A stretch of DNA of 64,000 nucleotides from Phytoactinopolyspora mesophila (GTDB lineage: Bacteria; Actinomycetota; Actinomycetes; Jiangellales; Jiangellaceae): positions 1 through 64,000 of the forward strand of contig NZ_WLZY01000013.1 in NCBI RefSeq assembly GCF_010122465.1, in the 5' to 3' direction. A model generated the notes under the pieces. That model had not been told where the DNA came from. It searched no databases and saw nothing but the letters and a program-made list of their open reading frames with translations. Positions within the stretch are counted from its first letter, which is position 1. Each line of letters opens with the position of its first letter. Shown here piece by piece: positions 14,115-26,416 of the stretch. A program made the translations under genes and the position numbers.

Positions 14115-14813
14115 ATGCCGGAGCGTGGCAGCAGCAAACATGGACCCCGGCAGGACGACGAGCTCAAGCATGAGCTGCACGGATTGGAGCAGGCCGACCG
14201 CCGGGCGCGTGCCGAGGAGTGGCGGGATCCCGAGCCTCCGGCCGACGATGATCCCGCCACCTACACGCCGTCCGATCCCGACATGCCTCCCGCCGACGCC
14301 GGGACCCGACCGCCGGTTTATGAAGCGGACAACGCCGACGCGACGGTCGGCCCATCAGCATCCGGGTCGGCTTCACCGGAGGCCGGCATCGTCGCCCAGA
14401 CCGTCTCCGATGTCATGACCCGCCGGGTCATCGCCTTGTCCATCGACGCCTCTGTCACCGACGCCGCGATCGCGATGAAGAACAACGACGTAGGCGAAGT
14501 CGTCGTCGCCCACGACGGTGCCGTGCGCGGAGTGGTGACGGATCGAGATCTCACGATCCGGGTGGTGGCCGAAGAACTGGATCCGGACCGCACCCCTCTC
14601 GAGGAGATATGCAGCGAGGAGGTCGTGGCCGTACGCCCGGACGCCCCGGTGGACGAAGCCGTCGCCCTCATGCGGGCACGTGCGTTGCGCCGCCTTCCGG
14701 TCGTCGACGAGGACACGCGCCCGCTGGGCGTTCTCTCGCTCGGCGACGTCGCGGTGTCGAGGCAGCCGGAATCACCGCTCGCGGACATCAGCGCGGCTCC
14801 GCCGAACCGCTAA
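14115..14813 (+). CDS. CBS-domain pair protein
   Basis: This 232-aa protein has a hydrophilic, proline- and acid-rich N-terminus (1-95) and two CBS domains. The first starts VSDVMTRRVIALSIDASV and the second EEICSEEVVAVRPDAPV, a Bateman module that binds adenine nucleotides. Such stand-alone CBS proteins in actinobacteria are stress- or hypoxia-linked; the partner is unknown. The start at 14115 follows GCAGGAGGACACC. Its stop overlaps the stop of the convergent PEP-mutase-like gene by 4 bp. Confidence 0.87.
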   Translation: MPERGSSKHGPRQDDELKHELHGLEQADRRARAEEWRDPEPPADDDPATYTPSDPDMPPADAGTRPPVYEADNADATVGPSASGSASPEAGIVAQTVSDVMTRRVIALSIDASVTDAAIAMKNNDVGEVVVAHDGAVRGVVTDRDLTIRVVAEELDPDRTPLEEICSEEVVAVRPDAPVDEAVALMRARALRRLPVVDEDTRPLGVLSLGDVAVSRQPESPLADISAAPPNR

Positions 14814-15601
14814 TCGGCCGCGAACGCGGCGTCGCGAACCTCGGGGGCCAGACTGCTCGTCAAATAGGACGTCGTCCCGTCGGACAGCAACTCACGTGCG
14901 GCCGTCGCCAGCGCGCCGTAAGCGACCCACGCCAGCGATCCGCCCACGGACACCCGGCGAACCCCGAGTGCCGCCAGCTCCGCCGTGGATGGAACACCGG
15001 GCAGGGTCAATACATTGACCGCGCCGCCCACCTCGCGCACCAGGCGTTCGATGTCGACTGCCGCCGTCAGGCCCGGCGCATAGACCACGTGCGCTCCTGC
15101 CGCCCGGTAGGAGGCCAACCGCTCGACCGTATCGGTAAGATCGTCGACGCCGTACAGATGATTGTCCGCCCGGGCGGTCAGGACCAGACCGTGCCGGTCG
15201 GCCACCTCAGCCGCGACCCGCACTCGCTCGGTGGCCAGATCGACAGGAAGTACGCCAACCGAGGGCTCGTAGTCCTCGATCGAGCATCCGGCCGCGCCGG
15301 TGCCGGCGATCAACTCGACCGTGCGGGCGACGCCACCCGGCGAGCTGGGATAACACCCCTCCGAGTCCACGCTGACCGGAACGGACACCGCTTCGACAAT
15401 CGCCTCGGCGTGAGCCAGCATCTCTTCGCGGCGTACATGCTGATCGAGGCGCCCCAGCGAGCTCGCGTGGCCAGAGCTGGTGGTGGCCAGCGCCGCACTG
15501 CCCAGGTGCTCAAGTATTCTCGCCGAGCCAGCGTCCCATGCGTTCGGCATGATGAACAGGCCGTCGTCGTGCATAGATCTGAAGCGATCCGTCATATCCA
15601 T
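14810..15601 (-). CDS. Isocitrate lyase/phosphoenolpyruvate mutase family protein
   Basis: This 263-aa (beta/alpha)8 enzyme of the ICL/PEPM superfamily cleaves or forms C-C or C-P bonds next to a carboxylate. Seen motifs are MPNAWDAGSARI, SVDSEGCYPSSP (superfamily D/E metal site), GCSIEDYEP and LTARADNHLYG. The isocitrate-lyase KKCGH loop is replaced by SEGCY, so it is not a true isocitrate lyase. A 2-methylisocitrate lyase- or oxaloacetate hydrolase-like activity is possible. The start ATG at 15601 follows GAGGAGCA. It convergently overlaps the CBS gene. Confidence 0.86.
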   Translation of the reverse strand: MDMTDRFRSMHDDGLFIMPNAWDAGSARILEHLGSAALATTSSGHASSLGRLDQHVRREEMLAHAEAIVEAVSVPVSVDSEGCYPSSPGGVARTVELIAGTGAAGCSIEDYEPSVGVLPVDLATERVRVAAEVADRHGLVLTARADNHLYGVDDLTDTVERLASYRAAGAHVVYAPGLTAAVDIERLVREVGGAVNVLTLPGVPSTAELAALGVRRVSVGGSLAWVAYGALATAARELLSDGTTSYLTSSLAPEVRDAAFAAD

Positions 15602-15670
15602 TGCTCCTCGTGAAGTCTGGCCCTGCAGCGTCTGACGTGTGGAGCCTAGCGGCCGGGTGATGCCACCCAC

Positions 15671-15729: not shown

Positions 15730-16434
15730 TCAGCTGGCACCACGTACCCCGGGCAGTTCACGCCCGGTCAACGCGCAGGCGTGGCGGACGTGATCTCGCA
15801 GCGAATCCGCGAGTTCGTCGGCTCGTTCCCGGACCATGTCCCGACGACGCGGCCACGGCACGGGCCGGGTCTGGATCGGTGCGCCGGCAACGACATCGAT
15901 CGACGTGCGCAACCGTGGCAGGCCTTTGGCCGATCCGGGCGCCGGGCTACAGCCCAGGGCGGCCACCGGGACGACGGGCGCCCCCGTGCACAGCGCCAGA
16001 TAGGCCACGCCGGGTTTGATCTGTTCGAAACCGCCGGGGCCACGGGTTCCTTCGGGATAGATCGCGAGGACGTCACCGCGATGTAAGACCGCAAGGCAGT
16101 CTTTGACCGCTACCGGGTCGCATGCGAACCGGTCTACCGGGATCTGACCGATCGCTCGAAGAGCCACGCCGGCTGGTCCGGCGAACATCTCCTGCTTCAC
16201 CAGGGCATGGACTGGCCGTTTGACCAGTGCGTACAACAGCGGGCCATCAAGGATGCTGGTGTGATTGGACGCGAGGATCACCGGCCCGCCTGCGGGAATC
16301 ACGTCAAAGTTGTGCAGCCGGACCTTGAATGCGGAACGCACGAGCGCGGACGCGAGTGGACGCGCTGCGCGCGCGGCCCGCGCTCTCGGGCCGGGAACGT
16401 CATGCCAATAGTCCGGAGCTGCGGCAACCGTCAT
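15730..16434 (-). CDS. 1-acylglycerol-3-phosphate acyltransferase (PlsC family)
   Basis: This 234-aa membrane-associated acyltransferase moves an acyl chain from CoA or ACP to a glycerol-phosphate hydroxyl. The catalytic HX4D motif is in SNHTSILD (about H58, D63), and the phosphate-binding motif is YPEGTRGPGG. I start at the ATG at 16434 after GGGAAAGG. It lies 157 bp downstream of the ferritin-like gene of the proposed ether-lipid locus and may be the sn-2 acyltransferase finishing an alkyl-acyl phosphatidate. The gap contains one operator half-site (CTTCGTT at about 16456), so it may have its own promoter. Confidence 0.87.
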   Translation of the reverse strand: MTVAAAPDYWHDVPGPRARAARAARPLASALVRSAFKVRLHNFDVIPAGGPVILASNHTSILDGPLLYALVKRPVHALVKQEMFAGPAGVALRAIGQIPVDRFACDPVAVKDCLAVLHRGDVLAIYPEGTRGPGGFEQIKPGVAYLALCTGAPVVPVAALGCSPAPGSAKGLPRLRTSIDVVAGAPIQTRPVPWPRRRDMVRERADELADSLRDHVRHACALTGRELPGVRGAS

Positions 16435-16591
16435 GATCCTTTCCCTTCCCGGCGAGCTTCGTTCACAAGGCAATGGAGACGTCTAAGTGACGTCGACGCG
16501 ACTCATGCCCCGTCGTGCCAGGTCCAGTACCCAGAATGGTCTCGCTGAGCCGACCGTCGTTGAGAAACGGGGTCACCGCGTCGCGTATTCG

Positions 16592-17386
16592 TCAGGCCGC
16601 GACGCCGCGACTGCGCATGGCGTCCTCGACTATCGTCAGCCCTTCGAGGCCGGGCATACGGGCGATGTGGCCGTCGATCTTGCGTATCTCCGCGAGCCCG
16701 TCCGGTCCGCTGAACAGGTGGCTCATCACGTGCACGACCTCCTCTTCCGGCATCACGCCGGAGCCGACCGGCGCCCAAGCCTTACGCAGGGCGAACCGGG
16801 CGAAGAGACGTGCCTTCTTGCTGTCTTCCAGCCGCTTACGGGCCTGAGTTGCGTAGAAGGCGACATGCCGGGCCTCCTGTTTGGCGATCCGCCGGAGCAA
16901 CTCGGCGAGCGCCGGATGGCCTTCGAGCGTCGCCAGCCGGGTATAGGCGGCACTCGCCGACCATTCGTTGACTGCGCCCCAGATCATGTGTGTCGCGATG
17001 AGGTCGGCGCCCAGCACGTTGCCGAGCACCGATTGTTTCACCGGGTCGAGACGGTCCTTCCAGCCGACCTTGAGCCGCTTGGCTTTGAGCGCGTCGAAGT
17101 CGACGGTGATGCCGTGCAGTCCCAGCACCGCGGCCAGCGCTTCACCGTGCCAGAACTCTTCACGGTTCCAGATCGTGAAGAAGGTGGCGACGTCGCCGTC
17201 CTTGTGCGCCGGGGTGACCAGCAGATCGCGGAGATAGCAGACGGTGTGGTACTCGACATCGCACATGTACCGAAGACTCCGCAGCGTGTGCGCCGGGAGC
17301 GGATTCTCCCGGAAATCGTCGAACGACAGGTCCTGCCACTGCACACGCTCGGACTTGGTCGCGAAACGATCGATGTCAAAAGCCAT
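16592..17386 (-). CDS. Ferritin-like di-iron carboxylate protein (intact ligands)
   Basis: This is a 264-aa all-helical protein with the full ferritin-like di-iron pattern E45 ... E77-x2-H80 ... E141 ... E171-x2-H174. The last two are in REEFWHGE and QEARHVAFY. The spacing is close to that of aldehyde-deformylating oxygenase and other di-iron oxidases, but I do not recognise a named family. Its start lies inside the 3' end of the fatty-acyl-reductase gene (11-bp overlap), so the two are translated together. A role in oxidising a fatty aldehyde, alcohol or alkyl ether chain is an inference from context. Iron binding follows from the ligands; the reaction is unknown. Confidence 0.8.
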   Translation of the reverse strand: MAFDIDRFATKSERVQWQDLSFDDFRENPLPAHTLRSLRYMCDVEYHTVCYLRDLLVTPAHKDGDVATFFTIWNREEFWHGEALAAVLGLHGITVDFDALKAKRLKVGWKDRLDPVKQSVLGNVLGADLIATHMIWGAVNEWSASAAYTRLATLEGHPALAELLRRIAKQEARHVAFYATQARKRLEDSKKARLFARFALRKAWAPVGSGVMPEEEVVHVMSHLFSGPDGLAEIRKIDGHIARMPGLEGLTIVEDAMRSRGVAA

Positions 17387-19712
17387 GAGATGTCCTGTCG
17401 TCGGTCTCGTCGCCGCGATCTGTCCACGGCGCCTTCTTCCGCGATCCGACCGAGCGGCGCGGTGTCTGACCAGCGTGCCGGTCCGTTATTGCGGTCCGCC
17501 CCCAGTCGAAGACTGTCCACGATTGCCTGCGCGCGTGCCGGTAGAGCTTGCTGTCAGGGTTGACGGCCGCGGGGTGGCCGAGCAACTGCAGCCAGGCCAC
17601 GTCCGCATGGCTGTCTCCGTAACCGTACGAATGCCGTAGATCCATACCGTGGTGATCGGCGTATTGGACGAGCCAAGCCGCACGGGCTTCGTCGACCAGC
17701 GGCGGAGCGTCGAGATAGCCGGTCAGCACGCCGTCGTTCTGGTGCATACGCCCGGCGATGACGTCATCGAAGAGGTGTGCGATCGGCTCGACGAGGACGT
17801 CGATCGAACCGGTCACGAGCACGGTGTGATGCCCGGCGGCGCGGTGTGCCTGGGCGCAGGCAACCGCGTCAGGGAGCACTCGTTGCCGCAGTGCTCGGCC
17901 GAACGCGCCCTGTGCCTGCCGTTGTATCTCGCTGGCCGGAAGACCCTCGTAGCGGCGGGTGAAGGCACGGATGAACTCGCCTCGGTTGCGCAGCTCACTG
18001 CGGACGTAACCGGGCAACGACACCGCGAGACTGCCCAGTTCGCGCGGCCAACGCGACATCGGCGCCATGGAACGGCACAGCCAGAGGTACTGCTCGATGA
18101 GGTTCCAGTCGAGTACGGTGCCCTCGAGATCGAACACGGCCAGCGCATCGGATCGCACGGACAACATGCGGGTGGGCTGTGGTCGCGAGGCGGGGCGGTT
18201 CACGAACGCGCGGCTCAGCGATGTGACGGCCGGGAAATGAACCTCTTGCAGATAGTGCCGCCAGTCGATCTCGGTGACGTCGAACCCGCGGTGGCCACGT
18301 TCGGGCTCCGGAATAGACCTGTGCAACTCCCGGGCCCGTGCATCGTCGAAAACGATCTCGGTCTGCACATAGGGCCGGTAGAGGTCGGTGAGTTTGCGCA
18401 GCGAACGGAGGTCGCGCTGGAGGCTGTGCACTTTGTCGGCCCACCCGCGCGAACGCGTAGTCATCGGCAACCGGGTCAGCAGCCAATCCGCACTGGTGAC
18501 CAGCGCTTCTCGCTGCCGCATCGCACGGTCCACGCGCGGGCCGCCGGCCAATCGCCAGCTCGGCACCTGGACGTGTCCGTCGTCCTTCGGTAGCGGCGAG
18601 TTCACGAAGAACTCGCGGACATTCTGGTACATCTCGTGGAATGCCAGCGGATTGCTGGCGCCGGAACCGAGATGGAAGTAGCGGCGCCCAGCCGGCTCCG
18701 GCGGTGTTAGCGCCGCGGCGATAATCGCGTTCACGACAAAGTCGACCGGGATGATGTCGAGGATGCTGTCCGGCAACGCCGGGAAGTCGGGCAGCTGTCC
18801 ACGGCCGTAGGCCAGGATCAGCGGGTCGGCCACTTTGAAACCGTCGATCCATCCCGGGAATGGATGCCGGAGTGCGCTTTCGATGATGGTGGGTCGCAGC
18901 ACCGACAGCCGCTGCCCCTCCCGGTACCACAGGTCTTCCGCAGCCCGCTCGGCCAACGCTTTGGTGAAGGTGTAAACGTCTGTCCAGCCGAGCGTCTCCG
19001 CCCGTAGTCGCCCCTGGTCGATTAGCCGTTCGTTGACCCACTCCTGCCTGGCCTGCTCGGCGGCGTTGGTGACCGCCTGGGGGCCCACCTTGCCGTGCTC
19101 AGCACGAGCTTGGTCCAGCAGCTGGCGCAACACCACGGGGTCGCGTGAGGCGAGTTCGAGGCTTCGCCGGGCCGTGTGCGCCATCTCGGCCTCGGCACGC
19201 CAGTCGACGTCGTGGTTGAGCGACTGCTCAGGCGTGATCCCTTTGCGCAGCCCGCCCACGTAGGCGGTAGAGACGTGGATCACGTGGGGTGTCGCGCCGG
19301 CAGCCCGCAGGCCTCCGTACAGCCCCAGCGCCCCGCCCACATTGGTATCGAACGCTTCGTCTATCGGTGGATCGAACTTCACCGCGGACGCGCCATGGAT
19401 AACCGTGTGGAGATCGGCCGGTAGCTCCGGCATATCCGTGAGATCCCCGGCGATGACGGCGATGCGTTCACGGGCGATCCGGTCGGCTTCAGCCGCGCCG
19501 ATGGACCGCCGCCACGTGCGGAACACCGGCTTGCGCAGCAGTTTGGCGAGGCGGTCTTCGGCCGTGAGGCTTCCTTTTGGCCGGATGATCACTGAGATCC
19601 GGGTATCCGGGTGCCCGGACAGCAGCCGTTCCAGCACTGCCTGCCCGACGAAGCCCGTGGCTCCGGTCAGCAGGACATGAGCGTCCGACAGCGTGGACCC
19701 TGGCGTGGTCAT
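17376..19712 (-). CDS. Fatty acyl-CoA reductase fused to a HAD-IB phosphatase-like domain
   Basis: This is a 778-aa two-part enzyme. The first 500 residues are an extended SDR of the male-sterility/FAR type (NAD_binding_4). The cofactor loop is LLTGATGFVGQAV and the catalytic Tyr/Lys pair is in YTFTKALAE, with a FAR-C-like stretch after it. FARs reduce acyl-CoA to fatty alcohol. The C-terminal ~230 residues are a HAD domain of the SerB/HAD-IB type: VFDLEGTVLDW in place of DxDGT (second Asp is Glu), VLVTGSIDV and GYGDSHADVAWL. The start follows GGAG and overlaps the preceding stop (ATGA). Fatty alcohol is the alkyl donor needed by the AGPS encoded 2.7 kb away. Confidence 0.86.
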   Translation of the reverse strand: MTTPGSTLSDAHVLLTGATGFVGQAVLERLLSGHPDTRISVIIRPKGSLTAEDRLAKLLRKPVFRTWRRSIGAAEADRIARERIAVIAGDLTDMPELPADLHTVIHGASAVKFDPPIDEAFDTNVGGALGLYGGLRAAGATPHVIHVSTAYVGGLRKGITPEQSLNHDVDWRAEAEMAHTARRSLELASRDPVVLRQLLDQARAEHGKVGPQAVTNAAEQARQEWVNERLIDQGRLRAETLGWTDVYTFTKALAERAAEDLWYREGQRLSVLRPTIIESALRHPFPGWIDGFKVADPLILAYGRGQLPDFPALPDSILDIIPVDFVVNAIIAAALTPPEPAGRRYFHLGSGASNPLAFHEMYQNVREFFVNSPLPKDDGHVQVPSWRLAGGPRVDRAMRQREALVTSADWLLTRLPMTTRSRGWADKVHSLQRDLRSLRKLTDLYRPYVQTEIVFDDARARELHRSIPEPERGHRGFDVTEIDWRHYLQEVHFPAVTSLSRAFVNRPASRPQPTRMLSVRSDALAVFDLEGTVLDWNLIEQYLWLCRSMAPMSRWPRELGSLAVSLPGYVRSELRNRGEFIRAFTRRYEGLPASEIQRQAQGAFGRALRQRVLPDAVACAQAHRAAGHHTVLVTGSIDVLVEPIAHLFDDVIAGRMHQNDGVLTGYLDAPPLVDEARAAWLVQYADHHGMDLRHSYGYGDSHADVAWLQLLGHPAAVNPDSKLYRHARRQSWTVFDWGRTAITDRHAGQTPRRSVGSRKKAPWTDRGDETDDRTSHGF

Positions 19713-20587
19713 GTGCGGCTCCTGAACGCGGATTGGGTGAGTCGGCGCCACGTACCCGACAGCGATGCCGGGGTGCGCGGCAACGTTGACGCTGCCACCG
19801 AGGCACGCGCCAGCGCAAGCTGTTCCAGGCCAGGCAGTGTCTGGATGCGCCGGTCGATCCTGTCGACAAGCCTCGGCGCCGGCGCCAGGACGTGTCCGAA
19901 AAAGAATGCGGCGTCTGGCGTGGCGTCCTCGTCCAGGCTCGATGGCCACCCGGCACGTCGCAGCCTCACTTTGGCCAGCCTCTGGGCCCGTGGGGCGCCA
20001 CGGAGCCGGTCGTGCGCCTCGGCCTCGAAGAACTCCAGATGCCGCGCCTTGATGACGAGCACCTCGCCGAGGAACCGGGCCAGTTCCGGGTGCCCGTCGA
20101 GCGACAACAAACGTTCATACCCGGCCTGGCACAACAGCTCGTCCAACGTGCCCGCGGCCATGTGCACGGCGACGACATCCTCGCCGAGGGTGTTGTCAAC
20201 CAGTGACCGCCGGATCGGGGCGATTCTGTCCGAAAACCGGCGCCACGCGACCACGCCGTTGGCCCCCTGGCGGCTGACCTGCGCCGGTTGGAATTCGTGC
20301 CTGGCGAGCATCGCGTCCACAGCGTCGGCCACCCAGTACTTCTCGAATGCCCATGTGGTCAGGAACGCCGTGACCCGCGCGTCCTTGTGCGTTGGTGTCA
20401 CCAGCACCGTGCGCAGGTAGCGCATCGTCGAGCGTTCGAGATCTCGCATGTATCGCAGGCTGCGCAGCGTTGACTGCCCAAGCGGACGCACATCGAACTG
20501 GACGAGATCGAGTCGATCGCGGTGGCTCCCGGTGGCCGTCCGGGCGAACTCCCGGATATCGAAGGTGTTCTTCGGCTCGACGCTCAC
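19709..20587 (-). CDS. Degenerate ferritin-like paralogue (three iron ligands lost)
   Basis: This 292-aa paralogue is related over most of its length to the di-iron protein encoded 2.3 kb downstream (shared LRSLRYM, LVTPxHKD and ARH). Three of the six expected ligands are changed: the first ExxH is K83-x2-V86 and the second is K180-x2-H183. E51 and E150 remain. It probably cannot hold a normal di-iron centre and may be a structural partner of the intact paralogue. The GTG at 20587 follows AAAGGGTGATGAG and gives an N-terminus matching the paralogue (NTFDIREFA versus AFDIDRFA). Its stop overlaps the acyl-reductase start. Confidence 0.75.
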   Translation of the reverse strand: MSVEPKNTFDIREFARTATGSHRDRLDLVQFDVRPLGQSTLRSLRYMRDLERSTMRYLRTVLVTPTHKDARVTAFLTTWAFEKYWVADAVDAMLARHEFQPAQVSRQGANGVVAWRRFSDRIAPIRRSLVDNTLGEDVVAVHMAAGTLDELLCQAGYERLLSLDGHPELARFLGEVLVIKARHLEFFEAEAHDRLRGAPRAQRLAKVRLRRAGWPSSLDEDATPDAAFFFGHVLAPAPRLVDRIDRRIQTLPGLEQLALARASVAASTLPRTPASLSGTWRRLTQSAFRSRT

Positions 20588-20601
20588 CGGCTCATCACCC
20601 T

Positions 20602-20658
20602 TTACGAGCACCGGTGACCTCGCTTGTTCGGGGAACTGACCGGACACGACGCCTGCAT
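20602..20658 (-). CDS. Possible 18-codon leader ORF
   Basis: A start ATG at 20658 follows CGGGAGTGATCA, the same 12-mer that serves as ribosome site of the divergent SDR gene. The frame runs 18 codons to TAA and ends 14 bp before the GTG of the next gene. It could couple translation to that gene, or be a relic of promoter duplication. The peptide (MQASCPVSSPNKRGHRCS) resembles nothing I know. Confidence 0.35.
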   Translation of the reverse strand: MQASCPVSSPNKRGHRCS

Positions 20659-20691
20659 GATGATCACTCCCGACAGTTTGCCTCAACCACC

Positions 20692-20718
20692 AAAAACGAA
20701 CCTTCGTTCTCTTAATCT
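20692..20718 (-). promoter_or_regulatory. TetR operator A, left arm promoter
   Basis: A perfect palindrome AACGAA-CC-TTCGTT lies at 20695-20708. On the minus strand the surrounding 27 bases (AGATTAAGAGAACGAAGG...) match those before the divergent SDR gene at 25 of 27 positions and in the same orientation to transcription. It controls the ferritin-like/FAR operon. Confidence 0.8.
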
Positions 20719-20780
20719 CCCACACCCGACCCAAGCCTGAGACACCGCCCCCCAACGGACTACCCAATCCGAACATGCCC

Positions 20781-21377
20781 TCACGGCGAACCGCGCAAGG
20801 CGTCCAGGCCGCCTGCATACAGGCTTGCTTCAACATTGCCCACGAACAGGCCTTGCAGGATGTAGCCCATGATCACTCCGAACAGCACCTTGGCGACCTC
20901 GTCAGGGTCAGCGCCGGCCGCGACGCGACCAGCCCGTTGCTCGGCCGCCACGAGATGGGAGATCATGCCTTGAATTCTGCTATATCGCCCTCGGAGCATC
21001 TCCAGCAGTTCGTCGTCACGCAGGGCCTCGGCCCACACCTGAGGCGCCAGCCGGGCAAAACCCTGCTCGCCGAACGCGAAGCCGCTAGCCGCCTCCAGCC
21101 CTTGCCGCATGGCGTCGGCCAAGCCGAGCGGAGGCTCTCGTGTGAAAATCGACTCGACCAGACGATCGACTTCACCAGTCACTTCCTCAGCGATGACCGT
21201 GATGATCTCGCCCTTGCCTCCGAAATGGCCGTAGACCGCTCCCGCCGACAGTCCAGCCTCGGCGAAAATATCGGTCATGGAGGTTTGGTGAAATCCCTCA
21301 CGGACAAAACATCGGCGTGCCGCGGCAAGAATCTGCTGGCGGCGCCGATCGCTATGCTCTTGCGACACTCGAGGCAT
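20781..21377 (-). CDS. TetR family transcriptional regulator of the lipid locus
   Basis: This 198-aa one-component repressor has an N-terminal helix-turn-helix, RRRQQILAAARRCFVREGFHQTSMTDIFAEAGLSAGAVYGHFGGK (about residues 11-55). A variable ligand-binding domain follows with the usual nine-helix length. I start at the ATG at 21377 (MPRVSQE). It sits between the two divergent arms of the proposed ether-lipid locus. Matching AACGAAnnTTCGTT sites precede the left arm, the right arm and the gene itself. It is therefore very likely the regulator of all three promoters, with fatty acyl-CoA or a lipid as a plausible ligand. Confidence 0.9.
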   Translation of the reverse strand: MPRVSQEHSDRRRQQILAAARRCFVREGFHQTSMTDIFAEAGLSAGAVYGHFGGKGEIITVIAEEVTGEVDRLVESIFTREPPLGLADAMRQGLEAASGFAFGEQGFARLAPQVWAEALRDDELLEMLRGRYSRIQGMISHLVAAEQRAGRVAAGADPDEVAKVLFGVIMGYILQGLFVGNVEASLYAGGLDALRGSP

Positions 21378-21391
21378 GCCATGAACCGTAA

Positions 21392-21410
21392 AACGAACGT
21401 TCCTTCTATA
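21392..21410 (-). promoter_or_regulatory. TetR operator B with -10 box of tetR
   Basis: AACGAA-CG-TTCCTT (21392-21405) is the same palindrome with one mismatch. A -10-like TATAGA (minus strand, 21405-21410) touches it. The site ends about 15 bp from the tetR start and fits autorepression. Confidence 0.7.
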
Positions 21411-21534
21411 CAAGGAAAGGGAGTAGTCCGGTGACAACTCGCAAGAGCTGGCCCGACCCTTCGACCGACTCGCGCGCACGCGCGCCGGAGGGGGCGAGCA
21501 CCACCTCGATCGACGGTCGGCAGCCACCTATGGC

Positions 21535-21561
21535 AGATTAAGAGAACGAAGATTCGTTTTA
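21535..21561 (+). promoter_or_regulatory. TetR operator C, right arm promoter
   Basis: A perfect palindrome AACGAA-GA-TTCGTT lies at 21545-21558 within a 27-base block nearly identical to operator A. It lies 38 bp upstream of the SDR start. A shared CGGGAGTGATCA ribosome site follows. Confidence 0.8.
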
Positions 21562-21598
21562 GGCGAGCACGAGAACGACAAGGCGGGAGTGATCACAC

Positions 21599-22420
21599 GT
21601 GTCGCTACGTGGAACGGCGCACACATCGACCGCGCTCATCACCGGCGGCACCTCAGGCATCGGCCTTGCCTTCGCCCAGCTTCTCAGCCGCCAAGGCCAC
21701 AACGTCATCCTGGTGGGCCGGAACACTGATCGGCTGCATCAGACCGCCCATCAGTTGAGTTCATCCACCGGGCAGCAGGTTGACACCATTCAGGCCGATC
21801 TGGCCGATCGCGCCGACGTCCAGCGCGTCGCCGAACGGCTTTCATCGCAGGACGAACCGGTTGACCTGCTGGTCAACAATGCCGGTTTCGGCGTTCACGC
21901 CCGCTTGACTTCTGAGGACGTCACGGTCCACGACGAAGCGTTCGACGTCATGTGCCGGGCAGTCCTCGTACTGGGCGGCGCCGCCGCAAGAGCGATGCTG
22001 GCGCGCAAACGTGGCACGATCATAAATGTGTCTAGTACCGCCGGATTCATGGCCATGGGAAGCTACTCAGCGATCAAGGCGTGGGTGACGACCTACAGTG
22101 AGAGCCTCGCCGTTGAACTCCGCGGCACCGGGGTTCAGGTGACCGCGCTCTGCCCGGGCTGGGTGAAAACGGAGTTTCACCAGCGCGCCGGCATCAACAC
22201 AACCTCCATCCCCTCGTGGCTTTGGACCGACAGTGAACGGGTTGCCGCCACGTGCCTCAAGGACGCCGCCCGCGGCAAGGTGATTTCCATCCCCAGCAAG
22301 AGATTCCGGGTCTTGATGTGGGGTATTCGTCACCTACCCAGGAGCGCCATCCACGCCGCGTCGGGAAGAATCACATCGAAGCGAAGGGCACCACAGTCAG
22401 AAAACGGGGAGGTCCGTTGA
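21599..22420 (+). CDS. Short-chain dehydrogenase/reductase, candidate acyl/alkyl-DHAP reductase
   Basis: This 273-aa classical SDR has NAD(P) loop TGGTSGIG, LVNNAGFG, catalytic Ser in INVSSTAG and YSAIK (Tyr/Lys). An extended basic C-terminus (RVLMWGIRHLPRSAIHA...) resembles the membrane-near tails of SDRs acting on lipids. The GTG start follows GCGGGAGTGATC. Its stop overlaps the start of the acyltransferase-AGPS fusion (TTGA). In animals the 1-acyl/alkyl-DHAP reductase (PexRAP/DHRS7B) is also an SDR, so that step is the best contextual guess. A fatty-aldehyde or ketone reductase remains possible. Confidence 0.85.
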   Translation: MSLRGTAHTSTALITGGTSGIGLAFAQLLSRQGHNVILVGRNTDRLHQTAHQLSSSTGQQVDTIQADLADRADVQRVAERLSSQDEPVDLLVNNAGFGVHARLTSEDVTVHDEAFDVMCRAVLVLGGAAARAMLARKRGTIINVSSTAGFMAMGSYSAIKAWVTTYSESLAVELRGTGVQVTALCPGWVKTEFHQRAGINTTSIPSWLWTDSERVAATCLKDAARGKVISIPSKRFRVLMWGIRHLPRSAIHAASGRITSKRRAPQSENGEVR

Positions 22421-24819
22421 ATCTGAAGATGGCCCCGAGCGGCACAACCCGCACGAAGCGCTACCGGCGGTTCAACTCACGTGCCCTGGCGATCCCACGT
22501 TTCTGCATCCAGCGAATGATGCTGAAGCCACTGGTGTGGTCCTTGACGTCGGTTCGGGTGCAGTCCGAGTCGGACGTGAACAAGATGCCGCTGCCGTTCA
22601 TCGTGGTCGCCAATCACGCTAGCCACCTCGACACACCGCTCGTCATCGGCGCACTTCCCCGGCGCTTGTCCCGTTACCTGGCCGCCGGGGCTGCCGCTGA
22701 TTACTTCTTCGAAGTGCGCTGGCGCAAATGGCTCACGTCGTTGGTCTTCAACACCTTCCCCGTCGATCGCACCGGCAACCGCTCCCACTCCGGCGTCTCC
22801 AGGGAGCTTCTCCGGCGCGGGGTACCCCTGCTGATCTTCCCCGAAGGCGGTCGGTCCGCCTCGGGCCGTATCGGTTCCTTCAAGCCTGGCGCTGCCGCCC
22901 TGGCGATCACCTGCGACGTGCCCTGCCTGCCGGTGGCCATCGTGGGAGCCCATGAGGCCATGCCCCGCGGGAAGAACTGGCCGGTGCGCGGACGGCCGCC
23001 CATCGTCGTGTCGATCGGTTCGCCCGTGCGCGCTGAACCGGATGAGACCGCCGGCGCATTCACTCAGCGGCTGGCGGAAGAGATCCGCCGGCTCCATGCC
23101 AGGAGCGATTCGAGCGGGGACAGCAATTCTCGCGTGGTGAGGGGAGATCAGATGACTGCCGTCAAACACATGAAGTGGTGGGGCTGGGGTGATGAAGGGG
23201 TTTCGTTTGAGTACCGGAACAAGCCGGAGTTCGCGCCCTTCGTCCAGAAAGCGGTAGGGCTCGACGTCACCACTCCCCCCGTTCCGCCGTTGTCGTTCGA
23301 CGAACTCGAGGTGCCGGCGCCGCGTATCGGTGAGCAGTTACAAGAACAACTCACCGACATTCTCGGAGCCGAGCACGTTCACACGGACAAGATGAGCCGA
23401 GTCGTGCACACCCTTGGCAAGGGCATCCGGGATCTGCTGCGGATCCGGTCCAGCGACCTGAACCGCTGTCCGGACGTCGTCGTCTATCCGGCCGACGAGG
23501 AACAAGTGCGGTTGGTCGTCGAGGCGGCCGTCGAAGCCGACGCGGTGGTCATCCCCTTCGGGGGCGGCAGCAACATCTCCGGCAGCCTCGAGCCTCCTCC
23601 GGAGGAGCAACGCGTGGTGATCTCGCTGGACCTCGGCCGGATGAACCAGGTCCTGGAGATCGACGAGAACTCGGGACTCGCCCGAATCCAAGCAGGCGCG
23701 CAGGGTCCCGACCTCGAACGCGCACTCGCGGCGCGCGGCTGGACCATCGGCCATTTCCCCGACAGCTTCGCCCACTCCACGCTAGGCGGCTGGATCGCCA
23801 CCCGCTCTTCTGGAATGCAGTCCGACAAGTACGGCGACATCGCCGACATCGTCCGTGGCCTACGGCTCGTACGGTCAGGCGGTACCGTCGCCCTGCGCCC
23901 CCTCCCCAGCACGTCCACCGGCCCGAGCATCAGGGAGATGATTCTCGGCAGCGAAGGCCGGCTCGGGGTGATCACCGAGGCGACGGTCAACGTCCACCGG
24001 ATCCCGCCGGTACGTAAGGTGCTGGCTTACCTCTTCCCGTCATGGGATGCCGGCCTCGCCGCCATGCGGGAGATATCCGAGAGCGACGCCAGCCCGTCGG
24101 TGACACGGGTGTCCGACGCTCCGGAGACCGCGTTCTCATTCGCCACCCGCACAGCGAGCAAAGGGCTCAAGTCAGCCAGCACAAAGGCCCTGACCAAGGT
24201 TTTGACCATGCGCGGCTGGGACCTCGATCAGCTCTGCCTGTCCTTCATCGGTTACGAAGGTAGTGAATCCCACGTCAAGTACGAGAAGAAGCTCGTCAAA
24301 CGCATCGTCAGCAAACACGGCGGGATGTACATCGGCGAAGGGCCCGGGGCGCTGTACGACCAGAAGAAATTCGACACGCCCTATATCCGCGACTTCCTGC
24401 TCGACCGCGGCGCCGCTGCCGATGTCTCCGAGACGGCCGCGCCTTGGTCCAAGCTCCGGCATCTCTACGACACCACGATGGCCGCCGCCCACAGCGCGTA
24501 CGACGACCTCGGAGTACGCGGTTGGATCATGTGCCATCTCTCACACTCGTACCACTCCGGGGCGTGCTTGTACTTCACCTTTGCTTTCGTGCATGGCGAC
24601 GAACCGCTCAAGCAGTACGACCACGTGAAGTCGGCGATCCAACAAGCGTTTATCGACGCAGGCGGGACATTGTCACACCACCACGCGGTCGGCGTCGAGC
24701 ATGCGCCTTGGCTCACCGACGACATCTCCGAGGAGGGGGTCTCGTTGATGCGTGGTCTCTTCGAGAGCGCCGACCCGCGGAGAAATTTCAATCCGGACAA
24801 GATCATTCCCCGCTCCTAG
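22417..24819 (+). CDS. PlsC acyltransferase fused to alkylglycerone-phosphate synthase (AGPS-like)
   Basis: This is one open frame of 800 aa. Residues 1-245 are a PlsC-type acyltransferase (NHASHLD, H67-x4-D72; FPEGGRS). Residues 246-800 are a FAD-dependent AGPS-like enzyme: it starts with the KWWGWG hallmark, has the FAD loop PFGGGSNISG, STLGGWIATRSSGM and GSEGRLGVITEAT. Its C-terminus reads SHSYHSGACLYFTFAF and GGTLSHHHAVG, as in animal AGPS. AGPS swaps the acyl chain of acyl-DHAP for a fatty alcohol, forming the ether bond; the acyltransferase would make acyl-DHAP. The TTG at 22417 follows GGGGAGG and overlaps the SDR stop; an ATG at 22429 is the alternative. A strong internal start lies at the domain border. 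Confidence 0.87.
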   Translation: MNLKMAPSGTTRTKRYRRFNSRALAIPRFCIQRMMLKPLVWSLTSVRVQSESDVNKMPLPFIVVANHASHLDTPLVIGALPRRLSRYLAAGAAADYFFEVRWRKWLTSLVFNTFPVDRTGNRSHSGVSRELLRRGVPLLIFPEGGRSASGRIGSFKPGAAALAITCDVPCLPVAIVGAHEAMPRGKNWPVRGRPPIVVSIGSPVRAEPDETAGAFTQRLAEEIRRLHARSDSSGDSNSRVVRGDQMTAVKHMKWWGWGDEGVSFEYRNKPEFAPFVQKAVGLDVTTPPVPPLSFDELEVPAPRIGEQLQEQLTDILGAEHVHTDKMSRVVHTLGKGIRDLLRIRSSDLNRCPDVVVYPADEEQVRLVVEAAVEADAVVIPFGGGSNISGSLEPPPEEQRVVISLDLGRMNQVLEIDENSGLARIQAGAQGPDLERALAARGWTIGHFPDSFAHSTLGGWIATRSSGMQSDKYGDIADIVRGLRLVRSGGTVALRPLPSTSTGPSIREMILGSEGRLGVITEATVNVHRIPPVRKVLAYLFPSWDAGLAAMREISESDASPSVTRVSDAPETAFSFATRTASKGLKSASTKALTKVLTMRGWDLDQLCLSFIGYEGSESHVKYEKKLVKRIVSKHGGMYIGEGPGALYDQKKFDTPYIRDFLLDRGAAADVSETAAPWSKLRHLYDTTMAAAHSAYDDLGVRGWIMCHLSHSYHSGACLYFTFAFVHGDEPLKQYDHVKSAIQQAFIDAGGTLSHHHAVGVEHAPWLTDDISEEGVSLMRGLFESADPRRNFNPDKIIPRS
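23139..23154 (+). promoter_or_regulatory. Internal ribosome site and ATG at the PlsC/AGPS junction
   Basis: GAGGGGAGA followed by ATG at 23152 lies in frame, exactly where the AGPS homology begins (MTAVKHMKWWGWG). It could yield a free 555-aa AGPS as well as the fusion. There is no in-frame stop before it, although a TGA occurs in another frame just upstream, as if the two genes were once separate. Confidence 0.6.
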
Positions 24820-24824
24820 TCGGA

Positions 24825-25277
24825 ATGAACGTGGTTTCTCCCCGCTCACCACGCGAGACACCCCCGGACCTGGCCGTCGGCGAGGTCGTGGCCGAACGCG
24901 TCTATGCGCTGACCCGCAACGACCTCATCCGCTACGCCGGTGCTTCGGGCGACTTCAACCCCATTCACTGGAACCAGCGGATCGCGGCGTCTATGGGTAT
25001 GCCGGGCGTCATCGGCCACGGCATGCTGACCATGGCGCTCGCCGGGAGGCTGCTGACCGACTGGCTCGGAGATCCGGGGGCCGTCATCGAATACGGCGTC
25101 CGCTTCTCCAAACCGGTCGTGGTGCCGGATGACGACGTCGGGATCAAAGTCCACGTGAAGGCGACGATCACGGCTGTGCGCGACGACGGCGTGCGCGAGA
25201 TCACCCTCGAAGCGCTGGTGGACGACAACAAGGTGCTGACGCGGGCTCGGGCGCTGGTCAGGGGTTCGTCGTCGTAG
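24825..25277 (+). CDS. MaoC-like (R)-hydratase/dehydratase
   Basis: This is a 150-aa single hot-dog domain. The hydratase-2 motif is YAGASGDFNPIHW, with the catalytic Asp and His, followed by GVIGHGMLTMALAGRLL. Such proteins hydrate or dehydrate (R)-3-hydroxyacyl thioesters, e.g. HadB-type FAS-II dehydratases. It starts 5 bp after the AGPS stop, so it belongs to the same transcript. Its place in an ether-lipid operon is unexpected; it may tailor the acyl or alkyl chain supply. No strong ribosome site is visible, which suggests translational coupling. Confidence 0.85.
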   Translation: MNVVSPRSPRETPPDLAVGEVVAERVYALTRNDLIRYAGASGDFNPIHWNQRIAASMGMPGVIGHGMLTMALAGRLLTDWLGDPGAVIEYGVRFSKPVVVPDDDVGIKVHVKATITAVRDDGVREITLEALVDDNKVLTRARALVRGSSS

Positions 25278-25363
25278 TCGCCGAGATTGACAGGCGGTCC
25301 GTCGCAATCTGGGCCGCGCGACGCCTACAGTAGTCGTCGTCGCCTGCGTTGATTGGATTGCTT

Positions 25364-26416
25364 GTGCCTGTTCCCACCCGTGCCACCTATGCCGCCCTGG
25401 CTGGAATCGGTCTTCTCGTGCTCAGCGCCTGTGGAAACGGTGACGATTCCACGGCAGCCACCGTGAACGGCACCGAGATCTCGGCTGAAGACGTCGAGGC
25501 CCAGTCCGAGATCATCGCCGAGAATCCCGCAACCCAGCAACAGATGGAAGGCGCGGACGAGGAGCAGGTCGAGCAGCAGCTCAACGCCGACGCGCTGAGC
25601 CAGCTGATCTTCGAGATCGTCATGACGGACGGCGCGGCCGAGCTGGGTGTCGAGGTCACCGACGACGACGTCACACAGACCACCGAAGAGATCGCCATGC
25701 AGTTCGGTGGCGAAGACGCCATGTACGAGGAGCTTGAGGAGCAGGGCCTCGATCGCGACGAGGTCGACCGCCAGCTGCGGTTCGCCGCATTGCAGGACGC
25801 GATCATGGTGGAGCTCGGTGCCGGCGTCGACGACGAGGCCGTCGAGGAGGCGTACGCCGAAGGCACGCCGGCCAGGCACATCCTCGTCGAGGACGAGGAC
25901 GAGGCCAACGAGGTCTTCGACCGGATCGACGGAGGTGAGGATTTCGCGGAGGTTGCTCAAGAGACTTCGCTCGACGGTAGCGCCGAGGCCGGTGGCGACC
26001 TCGGTTTCATCCAGCCCGGCATGACCGTGACGGAGTTCGAGGAGGCGCTGTTCGCCGCTGACGAAGGCGAAGTGGTCGGCCCGGTCCAGAGCGACTTCGG
26101 ATACCACGTGATCCAGCGGCTCGAGAAGCCCGAATTCGAAGAAGTGCAGGACGAACTCCGCGCCAACCTCGAGCAGGTCAGCATGCAAGAAGGCCAGATG
26201 GCGTTCCAGGATTTCATCACCGAGCAACTGCAGGCGGCCGACGTCGACGTCGACCCCGAGTACGGCGAGTGGAACGCCGAGATGGGTCAGGTCATGCCCG
26301 ACGACCCCGTCCAGCCCCCGCAACCGGAGCAGCCGCTACCCGAGGATCTCGATGACCTCGACCTCGAGGATCTCGACCTCGAAGACCTCGAGGATCCCGA
26401 AGACTCCGACGACTGA
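25364..26416 (+). CDS. Lipoprotein peptidyl-prolyl isomerase (SurA/PpiC type)
   Basis: This is a 350-aa membrane-anchored foldase. The signal peptide ends with a lipobox (LLVLSAC), so Cys is lipidated and the protein faces outward. A SurA-N-like chaperone region follows (about 30-150). The parvulin domain (about 165-265) contains ARHILVEDEDEA, GGDLGFIQPGMTV and FGYHVIQ. The C-terminus is extremely acidic, with repeated DLxDLE units (about 325-350). I prefer the GTG at 25364 (MPVPTR before the hydrophobic core); a TTG 15 nt upstream is possible. A TTGACA lies at 25287-25292, but no well-spaced -10 does. Confidence 0.87.
   Translation: MPVPTRATYAALAGIGLLVLSACGNGDDSTAATVNGTEISAEDVEAQSEIIAENPATQQQMEGADEEQVEQQLNADALSQLIFEIVMTDGAAELGVEVTDDDVTQTTEEIAMQFGGEDAMYEELEEQGLDRDEVDRQLRFAALQDAIMVELGAGVDDEAVEEAYAEGTPARHILVEDEDEANEVFDRIDGGEDFAEVAQETSLDGSAEAGGDLGFIQPGMTVTEFEEALFAADEGEVVGPVQSDFGYHVIQRLEKPEFEEVQDELRANLEQVSMQEGQMAFQDFITEQLQAADVDVDPEYGEWNAEMGQVMPDDPVQPPQPEQPLPEDLDDLDLEDLDLEDLEDPEDSDD

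Follow-up and report, generated by a model that had tools for sequence, protein, structure and literature searches.

A 64,000-nucleotide stretch of the Phytoactinopolyspora mesophila genome (contig NZ_WLZY01000013.1, positions 1 to 64,000; hereafter the window; host genome 6.51 Mb in 27 contigs) carries a divergent gene cluster that very probably directs aerobic, peroxisome-type ether-lipid synthesis. The core of the cluster encodes an alkylglycerone-phosphate synthase (AGPS), a fatty acyl reductase (FAR), a short-chain dehydrogenase/reductase (SDR), a PlsC-type acyltransferase (PlsC) and two ferritin-like proteins, FLP1 and FLP2. FLP1 is a candidate Δ1' desaturase, an assignment that we regard as evenly balanced. 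Peroxisome-type ether-lipid synthesis combined with CarF-independent desaturation by FLP1, giving plasmalogens, stands slightly better than an even chance of being correct and is our best single explanation of the locus.

A conserved actinobacterial gene set

The cluster recurs across Actinobacteria. One scan of a genome collection returned 374 related stretches, the best 80 of which were examined. By their record titles these come from genera such as Phytoactinopolyspora, Jiangella, Herbiconiux, Plantibacter, Agreia, Subtercola, Frigoribacterium, Microlunatus, Kocuria, Kribbella and Streptomyces, and the closest, from Phytoactinopolyspora limicola, is 81% identical to the window in its best segment. 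Genes were counted with phmmer using the window proteins as queries at more than 60 bits, so that diverged members are missed, and some loci are cut by contig ends. On this basis AGPS is present in all 80 loci, PlsC in 79, SDR in 76, FAR in 63, FLP2 in 52 and FLP1 in 51, followed by a TetR-type regulator (5), a second PlsC (3) and a MaoC protein (1).

The core FLP1–FAR–FLP2 // SDR–PlsC–AGPS is complete in 51 of the 80 loci. This is the arrangement, AGPS beside FAR and ferritin-like genes, that a first-pass annotation of the window had proposed seeking in actinobacterial genomes. All 51 FLP1-bearing loci also hold FLP2, FAR, SDR and PlsC, and in 48 of the 51 full-core loci FLP1, FAR and FLP2 lie on the strand opposite to AGPS. 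FLP1 is found in 46 of the 60 loci that have at least 8 kb of sequence on both sides. The other loci carry SDR–PlsC–AGPS (13), the same genes with FAR (11), PlsC–AGPS (3), FLP2 without FLP1 (1) or AGPS alone (1), and FAR, SDR, PlsC and AGPS occur together in 63 loci (51 + 11 + 1). The Microlunatus loci are without FLP1. The gene set is not a product of chance, given this recurrence of the core, the Pfam E-values of the window proteins (3.9e-36 for FAD_binding_4, 3.9e-37 for FAD-oxidase_C and 2.8e-43 for the FAR domain PF07993) and the ADPS match described next.

The FAD enzyme is an AGPS

Among solved structures the FAD enzyme of the window best matches ADPS from Dictyostelium (2uuu; E 1.6e-121, 410 bits) and guinea pig (4bby; E 9.4e-86, 292 bits), and the next solved relative that is not an ADPS scores 77 bits. 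The motifs KWWGWG, GGGSNISG and SHHHAVG, which the first-pass annotation took as hallmarks of an AGPS-like enzyme, are present in the frame. In a maximum-likelihood tree of 32 rows, 29 AGPS sequences (19 cluster-type, 8 from a second actinobacterial type and 2 eukaryotic; no Myxococcus sequence was included) split from three FAD oxidases of the window's own genome with 100/100 support. The tree program flagged long branches meeting; we therefore limit our claim to the AGPS/oxidase split and draw no branching order between the eukaryotic and bacterial enzymes.

All 29 AGPS rows retain six positions (R419, R515, Y578 and H615–H617 in guinea-pig numbering) that we take to be active-site residues in guinea-pig AGPS; the three own-genome oxidases differ at five of the six and share only the last. 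The enzyme thus falls with AGPS and apart from the glycolate/lactate-type oxidases of its genome, and so passes the phylogenetic check that the first-pass annotation had set as a possible refutation. Identity as a D-lactate or glycolate oxidase is rejected by the tree split and the active-site residues. On these sequence criteria the FAD enzyme is an AGPS, and exchange of an acyl for an alkyl chain is its predicted reaction.

Actinobacteria also hold a second type of AGPS. A draw of genomes from the class (described below) yielded 71 AGPS places at E 1e-120, 38 of them at 404–443 bits. Eight sampled members of the second type (six from this list and two of 382–386 bits) form their own clade (100/100) and have all six active-site residues. 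In several members the match to the cluster profile begins no earlier than positions 25–51, and their N-terminal KWWGWG region may thus be missing or altered. The second type may include mycobacterial agpS, which is a guess on our part.

PlsC and AGPS are usually separate genes

PlsC and AGPS share a single open frame in the window, ending at 24819, which the first-pass annotation read as an acyltransferase–AGPS fusion. The shared frame is real in the window but is not a general feature of the cluster. The AGPS part is preceded by a strong ribosome-binding site and an ATG at 23152, and in many relatives the PlsC stop and AGPS start overlap as ATGA, in two separate genes. Among 81 AGPS frames compared (the 80 related loci and the window copy), PlsC has a separate frame in 78 and a shared one in the window copy and L021; locus L009 starts at a contig end inside PlsC, and its PlsC tail reads on in frame into AGPS. 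Besides the window, then, two of the 80 loci (L021 and L009), both from Phytoactinopolyspora, show the shared frame, which is not found in the congeneric L008, L010 and L011.

Alignment with relatives shows a change of length in the window immediately before the AGPS ribosome-binding site (23110–23170), as a result of which the PlsC frame continues into AGPS. We reject a general bifunctional fusion enzyme, as AGPS has its own ribosome-binding site and start codon and the shared frame is rare. The frame sharing may have genuinely arisen within part of one genus and has no bearing on the pathway.

Reductases, acyltransferases and the MaoC protein

The fatty acyl reductase of the first-pass annotation is borne out. 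In addition to its PF07993 domain, the FAR family profile finds fatty acyl-CoA reductase 7eoz as its best solved match (E 1.4e-68), Y247 and K251 are invariant in 13 rows, and the gene is co-conserved with AGPS. At its C-terminus, FAR has in addition a HAD-IB phosphatase-like domain (PF12710, E 7e-31) that had gone unmentioned. The assignment of SDR as a ketone reductase remains plausible, and SDR too is co-conserved with AGPS; its matches are nevertheless generic, consisting of mycolate reductase in NCBIfam (170.6 bits, far below the cut-off of 380) and generic short-chain dehydrogenases among solved structures.

The second PlsC, to which sn-2 acylation had been assigned, and the MaoC protein are both present in the window, but conservation does not place them in the pathway core. 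With the window proteins as queries, the second PlsC is found in 3 of the 80 loci, all from Phytoactinopolyspora, and MaoC in 1 at the threshold used, and we reject both as core members. An additional PlsC-like frame in L058 (62 bits) was not counted as a second PlsC.

FLP1 has the predicted fold and the ligand set of a soluble desaturase

The AlphaFold2 model of FLP1 (pLDDT 86.4) is closest in fold to castor stearoyl-ACP desaturase (4v0j_F; Z 18.8, root-mean-square deviation 3.0, 234 aligned residues, 18% identity). Ribonucleotide reductase R2, R2-like oxidases and hydroxylases rank lower, at Z of 15.9 or less among the matches listed. The putative iron ligands E45, E77xxH80, E141 and E171xxH174 are kept in 52 of 52 rows (the window and 51 others), in what we take to be the E / ExxH / E / ExxH ligand order of the castor enzyme.

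The FLP2 model (pLDDT 88.3) also has castor desaturase as its best fold match (Z 17.4), and FLP2 has no Pfam or NCBIfam match at E 0.01. Its full six-ligand set is found in 0 of 53 rows (E45 in 52, E77 in 1, H80 in 0, E141 in 46, E171 in 0 and H174 in 49). The two ferritin-like proteins noted in the first pass are thus both present and share a fold, but they are not a di-iron pair, because FLP2 is without the full ligand set in every row; that pairing is rejected. We read FLP1 as the probable catalytic subunit and FLP2 as a probable helper, judging from the alignments and models.

FLP1 also occurs outside the cluster. In the out-of-cluster contexts collected (L097–L099 and L101–L110), FLP2 lies alongside FLP1 only in L101 and L102; Pfam was run on 5 proteins of L101 and L110, so partners elsewhere may be missed. 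L101 (9820–11466) and L102 (8588–10328) hold an adjacent FLP1–FLP2 pair with no FAR or AGPS beside it, and a flavin-reductase-like gene adjoins the L101 pair. In L110, from the window's family and without the cluster-type AGPS, FAR, PlsC and a Lar_N protein (lactate racemase N-terminal, PF09861; 11903–13966) lie near FLP1. A Lar_N protein also stands between FLP1 and FAR in L058 (4241–5938), and Lar_N relatives are found in 8 of the 80 loci, all Subtercola. Among plasmids, FLP1 was found in 1 of 72,556 records, a Streptomyces megaplasmid.

Dimethylacetals in Subtercola and other Actinobacteria

Published lipid data link the cluster to dimethylacetals (DMAs). DMAs are an indication of plasmalogens and are usually seen in anaerobes, according to the authors describing Kineococcus rubinsiae (PMC7472656). 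In Subtercola vilae DB165 they amount to about 22% (i-16:0 DMA 17.0%, a-15:0 DMA 3.2% and a-17:0 DMA 1.9%), and the same source lists them in S. boreus, S. frigoramans and S. lobariae and reports none in Frondihabitans (PMC5945732). The full cluster is present in the S. vilae DB165 genome itself (L058), in other strains of S. boreus (L059, L071 and L075) and in S. lobariae (L062).

In K. rubinsiae, gas chromatography–mass spectrometry identified a-15:0 DMA in a peak that the MIDI system had named C14:0 2-OH (PMC7472656). Frigoribacterium faeni KACC 20509 is reported to contain 17.0% 'C14:0 2-OH' (PMC7033078), and F. faeni loci L068 and L082 carry the full set; this peak, too, may be a DMA. DMAs in aerobic Subtercola were reported in 2000 (cited in PMC5945732 and PMC7472656), and the 2020 Kineococcus paper called their occurrence surprising at first sight. 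No gene for actinobacterial DMAs or plasmalogens is named in the open-licence literature searched, a scope that leaves out most subscription journals, no DMA data were found in the excerpt of PMC11767043, and PMC12838417 yielded no more than a single matching entry, in its references.

Known vinyl-ether enzymes are not found in the cluster genomes searched

CarF/PEDS1 (PF10520) is found in none of 10 cluster genomes, including those of S. vilae, one S. boreus, S. lobariae, F. faeni and the window's own. As 14 control genomes were also without a match, 296 genomes of the phylum were searched, and 11 of these match, showing that the PF10520 search can find the family. The domains PF09989 and PF06050, which we take to be those of PlsA, are likewise absent from the cluster genomes searched (0 of 10, with 4 of 14 controls matching, and 0 of 13, with 2 of 14 controls matching, respectively); genome G000 was included in the PF09989 search and not in the PF06050 search. 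Neither CarF nor PlsA was thus found as a hidden vinyl-ether maker in the cluster genomes searched with these three profiles. Apart from FLP1, no desaturase-like protein was found linked to the cluster, in searches that did not take in membrane desaturases encoded elsewhere in the genomes.

The 11 PF10520-positive genomes include those of L111 and L112, and ten of the 11 belong to one family. FLP1 is found in 0 of the 11, with a profile that does match in the class draw. This mutual exclusion of CarF and FLP1 says little, because any AGPS relative is present in only 1 of the 11 CarF genomes (402.6 bits).

Co-occurrence of AGPS and FLP1 across genomes

The class draw is an even sample of 296 genomes from 105 genera, in which cluster-type AGPS was called at 700 bits or more and FLP1 at 370 bits or more. 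AGPS is present in 33 genomes, FLP1 in 25 and both in 20. The 20 include all 12 drawn genomes of one genus, probably Jiangella, and in the three of these that were examined (L097–L099) FLP1 sits apart from the other cluster genes. Counted by genus, AGPS is found in 8, FLP1 in 7 and both in 5 of 105 (Fisher p 1.2e-5), a value that serves only as a guide, given the non-independence of genera and cut-offs that were chosen once the scores were known. Weaker FLP1 matches (nine genomes at 285–352 bits, and some lower) were left out of these counts.

Weighing the alternatives

Several observations weigh against FLP1 as a plasmanyl desaturase. FLP1 scores 22.1 bits against the Pfam FA_desaturase_2 family (PF03405), just under the gathering score of 22.7. 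Neither FLP is seen in 28 of the 80 loci within the sequence available (some being cut by contig ends), and 13 of the 33 AGPS genomes in the class draw are without FLP1 at 370 bits or more. Conversely, 5 of the 25 FLP1 genomes are without this AGPS: one (G110) has an AGPS relative of 386 bits, and the others (G086, G144, G090 and G148) have none at E 1e-30. G090 and G110 are also without this FAR; in G086, genes for FAR, PlsC and Lar_N proteins all lie close to FLP1. Counting the FLP1 relatives of 285–352 bits raises the number of FLP1 genera without this AGPS to 7 and weakens the genus-level association to p 3.8e-4. FLP1 may therefore have other uses, or these lineages may have lost parts of the pathway, and its occurrence outside AGPS genomes is what most weakens the case for FLP1 as the desaturase. 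Agreia is reported with only a little iso-15:0 DMA (PMC5945732), and Agreia loci (L041 and others) hold the full set. In a more recent study of these Subtercola species, the table consulted contains no DMAs (PMC9287328); it gives 2OH-C14:0 at 15.6% in S. vilae, 10.4% in S. boreus, 9.9% in S. frigoramans, 3.9% in S. lobariae and none in S. endophyticus, which fits the same DMA miscall without proving it. The literature search found no lipid data for P. mesophila, and the chemotaxonomy literature gave no phenotype–genome pair outside the Microbacteriaceae.

The strongest competing explanation, although an unlikely one in our estimate, is that the cluster makes saturated alkyl ethers only, that FLP1 and FLP2 form an ordinary soluble fatty-acyl desaturase (acting, for example, to give anteiso-C15:1 or on the sn-2 chain) that accompanies the cluster, and that the Subtercola DMAs come from an enzyme encoded elsewhere in the genome. 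The closeness of the FLP1 fold to acyl-ACP desaturases suits this explanation, as do the five genomes with FLP1 and without this AGPS, two of them also without this FAR. Set against it are the unbroken company that FLP1 keeps with FLP2, FAR, SDR and PlsC in all 51 linked loci and the vinyl-ether lipids implied for Subtercola, where no CarF or PlsA-type family was found in the searches above, which did not extend to membrane desaturases elsewhere. Much less probable is a hydrocarbon pathway in which FLP1 and FAR act on fatty aldehydes, like aldehyde-deformylating oxygenase, with AGPS a separate use of the alcohol. FAR beside the ferritin-like di-iron protein FLP1 does resemble the cyanobacterial alkane pair; FLP1, however, has no aldehyde-deformylating-oxygenase match in Pfam (its FA_desaturase_2 and Rubrerythrin matches are both under cut-off), and its best folds are desaturases, with aldehyde-deformylating oxygenases absent among the fold matches listed, which is not proof. 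Least probable of all, and very improbable, is that the FAD enzyme belongs elsewhere in the FAD-oxidase superfamily and is no ether synthase: its best NCBIfam match is GlcD (128.5 bits, below the cut-off of 567.9), yet its scores to the two ADPS structures (410 and 292 bits) exceed the 77 bits of the next solved relative, and of the six positions kept in every AGPS row, five are changed in all three oxidases of its own genome.

A proposed pathway

Peroxisome-type synthesis followed by desaturation by FLP1 draws on the gene content, the identity and active-site residues of AGPS, the conserved clustering, and the ligands and predicted fold of FLP1 observed here, and on the Subtercola DMAs in print. 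From these we infer every catalytic step in P. mesophila, including the preference of PlsC for glycerone phosphate (dihydroxyacetone phosphate, DHAP), the ketone activity of SDR, control by TetR and the FLP1 reaction. TetR would control both units of the cluster. FAR would reduce fatty acyl-CoA or fatty acyl-ACP to a fatty alcohol, and the operon PlsC would acylate DHAP; AGPS would then exchange the acyl chain for the fatty alcohol, creating the ether bond, SDR would reduce the ketone and a PlsC would add the sn-2 chain. FLP1, aided by the ligand-poor FLP2, would most likely use O2 to introduce a 1'–2' double bond in the alkyl chain and so give plasmalogens, in place of the membrane enzyme CarF/PEDS1 and perhaps at the alkyl-glycerone-phosphate or alkyl-glycerol-phosphate stage.

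This FLP1 route is our best single explanation of the published DMAs in cluster-bearing bacteria, and we give it about an even chance of being correct. More tentatively, and a little short of even, we suggest that FLP1 with FLP2 constitutes a second, unrelated class of O2-dependent plasmanyl Δ1' desaturase, soluble and di-iron, which would have arisen in aerobic Actinobacteria independently of CarF/PEDS1 and PlsA/PlsR and perhaps acts on single-chain alkyl-glycerone phosphate and not on a finished membrane phospholipid.

An ether-lipid pathway had already been read from the window in the first pass. The AGPS identity and the co-conservation of FAR, SDR and PlsC uphold that reading; the general fusion, MaoC as a member and the di-iron pair fall away. 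The link to plasmalogens was absent from it.

Organization of the locus

Every feature named in the first-pass annotation was found where it had been placed (Table 1). The minus-strand unit reads TetR, FLP2, FAR-HAD, FLP1 and PlsC in transcription order, and the plus-strand unit reads SDR, PlsC, AGPS and MaoC. Between them lies an imperfect 19-nt inverted repeat with each arm near one of the divergent starts, an arrangement that would suit a TetR repressor acting on both units. The cluster is flanked by a PEP-mutase-type protein (14810–15670) and a PpiC-type rotamase (25349–26416), for which no link to the cluster was seen.

Table 1. Features of the cluster in window coordinates; several start codons across the locus are inferred.
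Feature	Position	Strand	Basis
PlsC-type acyltransferase, second copy (candidate sn-2 acylation)	15730–16434	−	Pfam PF01553, E 2.6e-21; start codon inferred
FLP1, soluble acyl-ACP-desaturase-like di-iron protein; candidate alkyl-to-alk-1'-enyl desaturase	16592–17386	−	Ligands and predicted fold
FAR (NAD_binding_4 and Sterile-like) fused to HAD-IB phosphatase-like domain; candidate alkyl (fatty alcohol) donor	17376–19712	−	Pfam; start inferred
FLP2, FLP1 fold without full ligand set; probable non-catalytic partner	19709–about 20605 (upstream end approximate)	−	Predicted fold
TetR-type regulator	20781–21377	−	Pfam PF00440, E 1.1e-14; start inferred
Operator-like element, arm 1, upstream of tetR	21389–21407		Inverted repeat pairing with 21543–21561, 19 nt, 84% complementary
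Operator-like element, arm 2, upstream of SDR operon	21543–21561		Inverted repeat; palindrome aacgaa-ga-ttcgtt (by eye)
SDR, candidate alkyl-glycerone-phosphate (ketone) reductase	21599–22420	+	Pfam PF00106, E 2.7e-45
PlsC-type acyltransferase, putative GNPAT role	22417–23154	+	Pfam PF01553, E 1.2e-19; possible TTG start overlapping SDR stop; start inferred
AGPS (alkylglycerone-phosphate synthase)	23152–24819	+	Solved-structure matches, tree, active-site residues, own ribosome-binding site and ATG
MaoC/HadB-like hydratase, peripheral	24825–25277	+	Pfam PF01575, E 5.7e-22

Relation to known systems

AGPS homologues have already been reported in Actinobacteria from metagenomes (PMC11868695). The cluster mirrors the animal peroxisomal pathway (FAR1, GNPAT, AGPS and PexRAP, then PEDS1) in its roles, with FAR, a DHAP acyltransferase, AGPS, a reductase and a later acyltransferase (PMC9131029). 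It differs in being organized as bacterial operons, in the HAD domain on FAR, in its soluble desaturase-like pair and in the absence of PEDS1/CarF from the 10 cluster genomes. A bacterial parallel is the Myxococcus xanthus operon MXAN_1676–1674, which encodes AGPS, a FAR–GNPAT fusion and an NAD-dependent epimerase/dehydratase, and thus likewise combines AGPS, FAR, an acyltransferase and a dehydrogenase-type protein in an aerobic bacterium. MXAN_1676 makes a minor contribution to the ether lipids of M. xanthus, which also has the elb operon (PMC9131029). FAR is fused to HAD in the cluster and to GNPAT in M. xanthus, where the vinyl ether is made by CarF, and FLP1 and FLP2 are not mentioned in the excerpt of that source (PMC9131029).

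FLP1 resembles the soluble stearoyl-ACP desaturases of castor, ivy and Mycobacterium tuberculosis (DesA2) in fold (Z 16.6–18.8) and in ligand order. It differs in its low identity (about 18%), its score just under the Pfam cut-off and its ligand-poor second subunit. The reaction proposed for FLP1, O2-dependent conversion of an alkyl to an alk-1'-enyl chain, is that of the plasmanyl desaturase CarF/TMEM189 (PEDS1), which is a membrane enzyme with a different fold. The end product, plasmalogen, would be shared with the anaerobic plasmalogen synthase PlsA/PlsR, which reduces diacyl lipids (PMC9702350).

With this locus, the aerobic ether lipids, and perhaps the plasmalogens, of a large bacterial group gain a specific set of genes, and the plasmalogen question becomes testable by deleting a single gene. 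Should FLP1 prove to be the desaturase, plasmalogen vinyl ethers would have arisen by a third kind of enzyme, a soluble one available for study, and 'C14:0 2-OH' as recorded in descriptions of some actinobacterial species may derive from plasmalogens.

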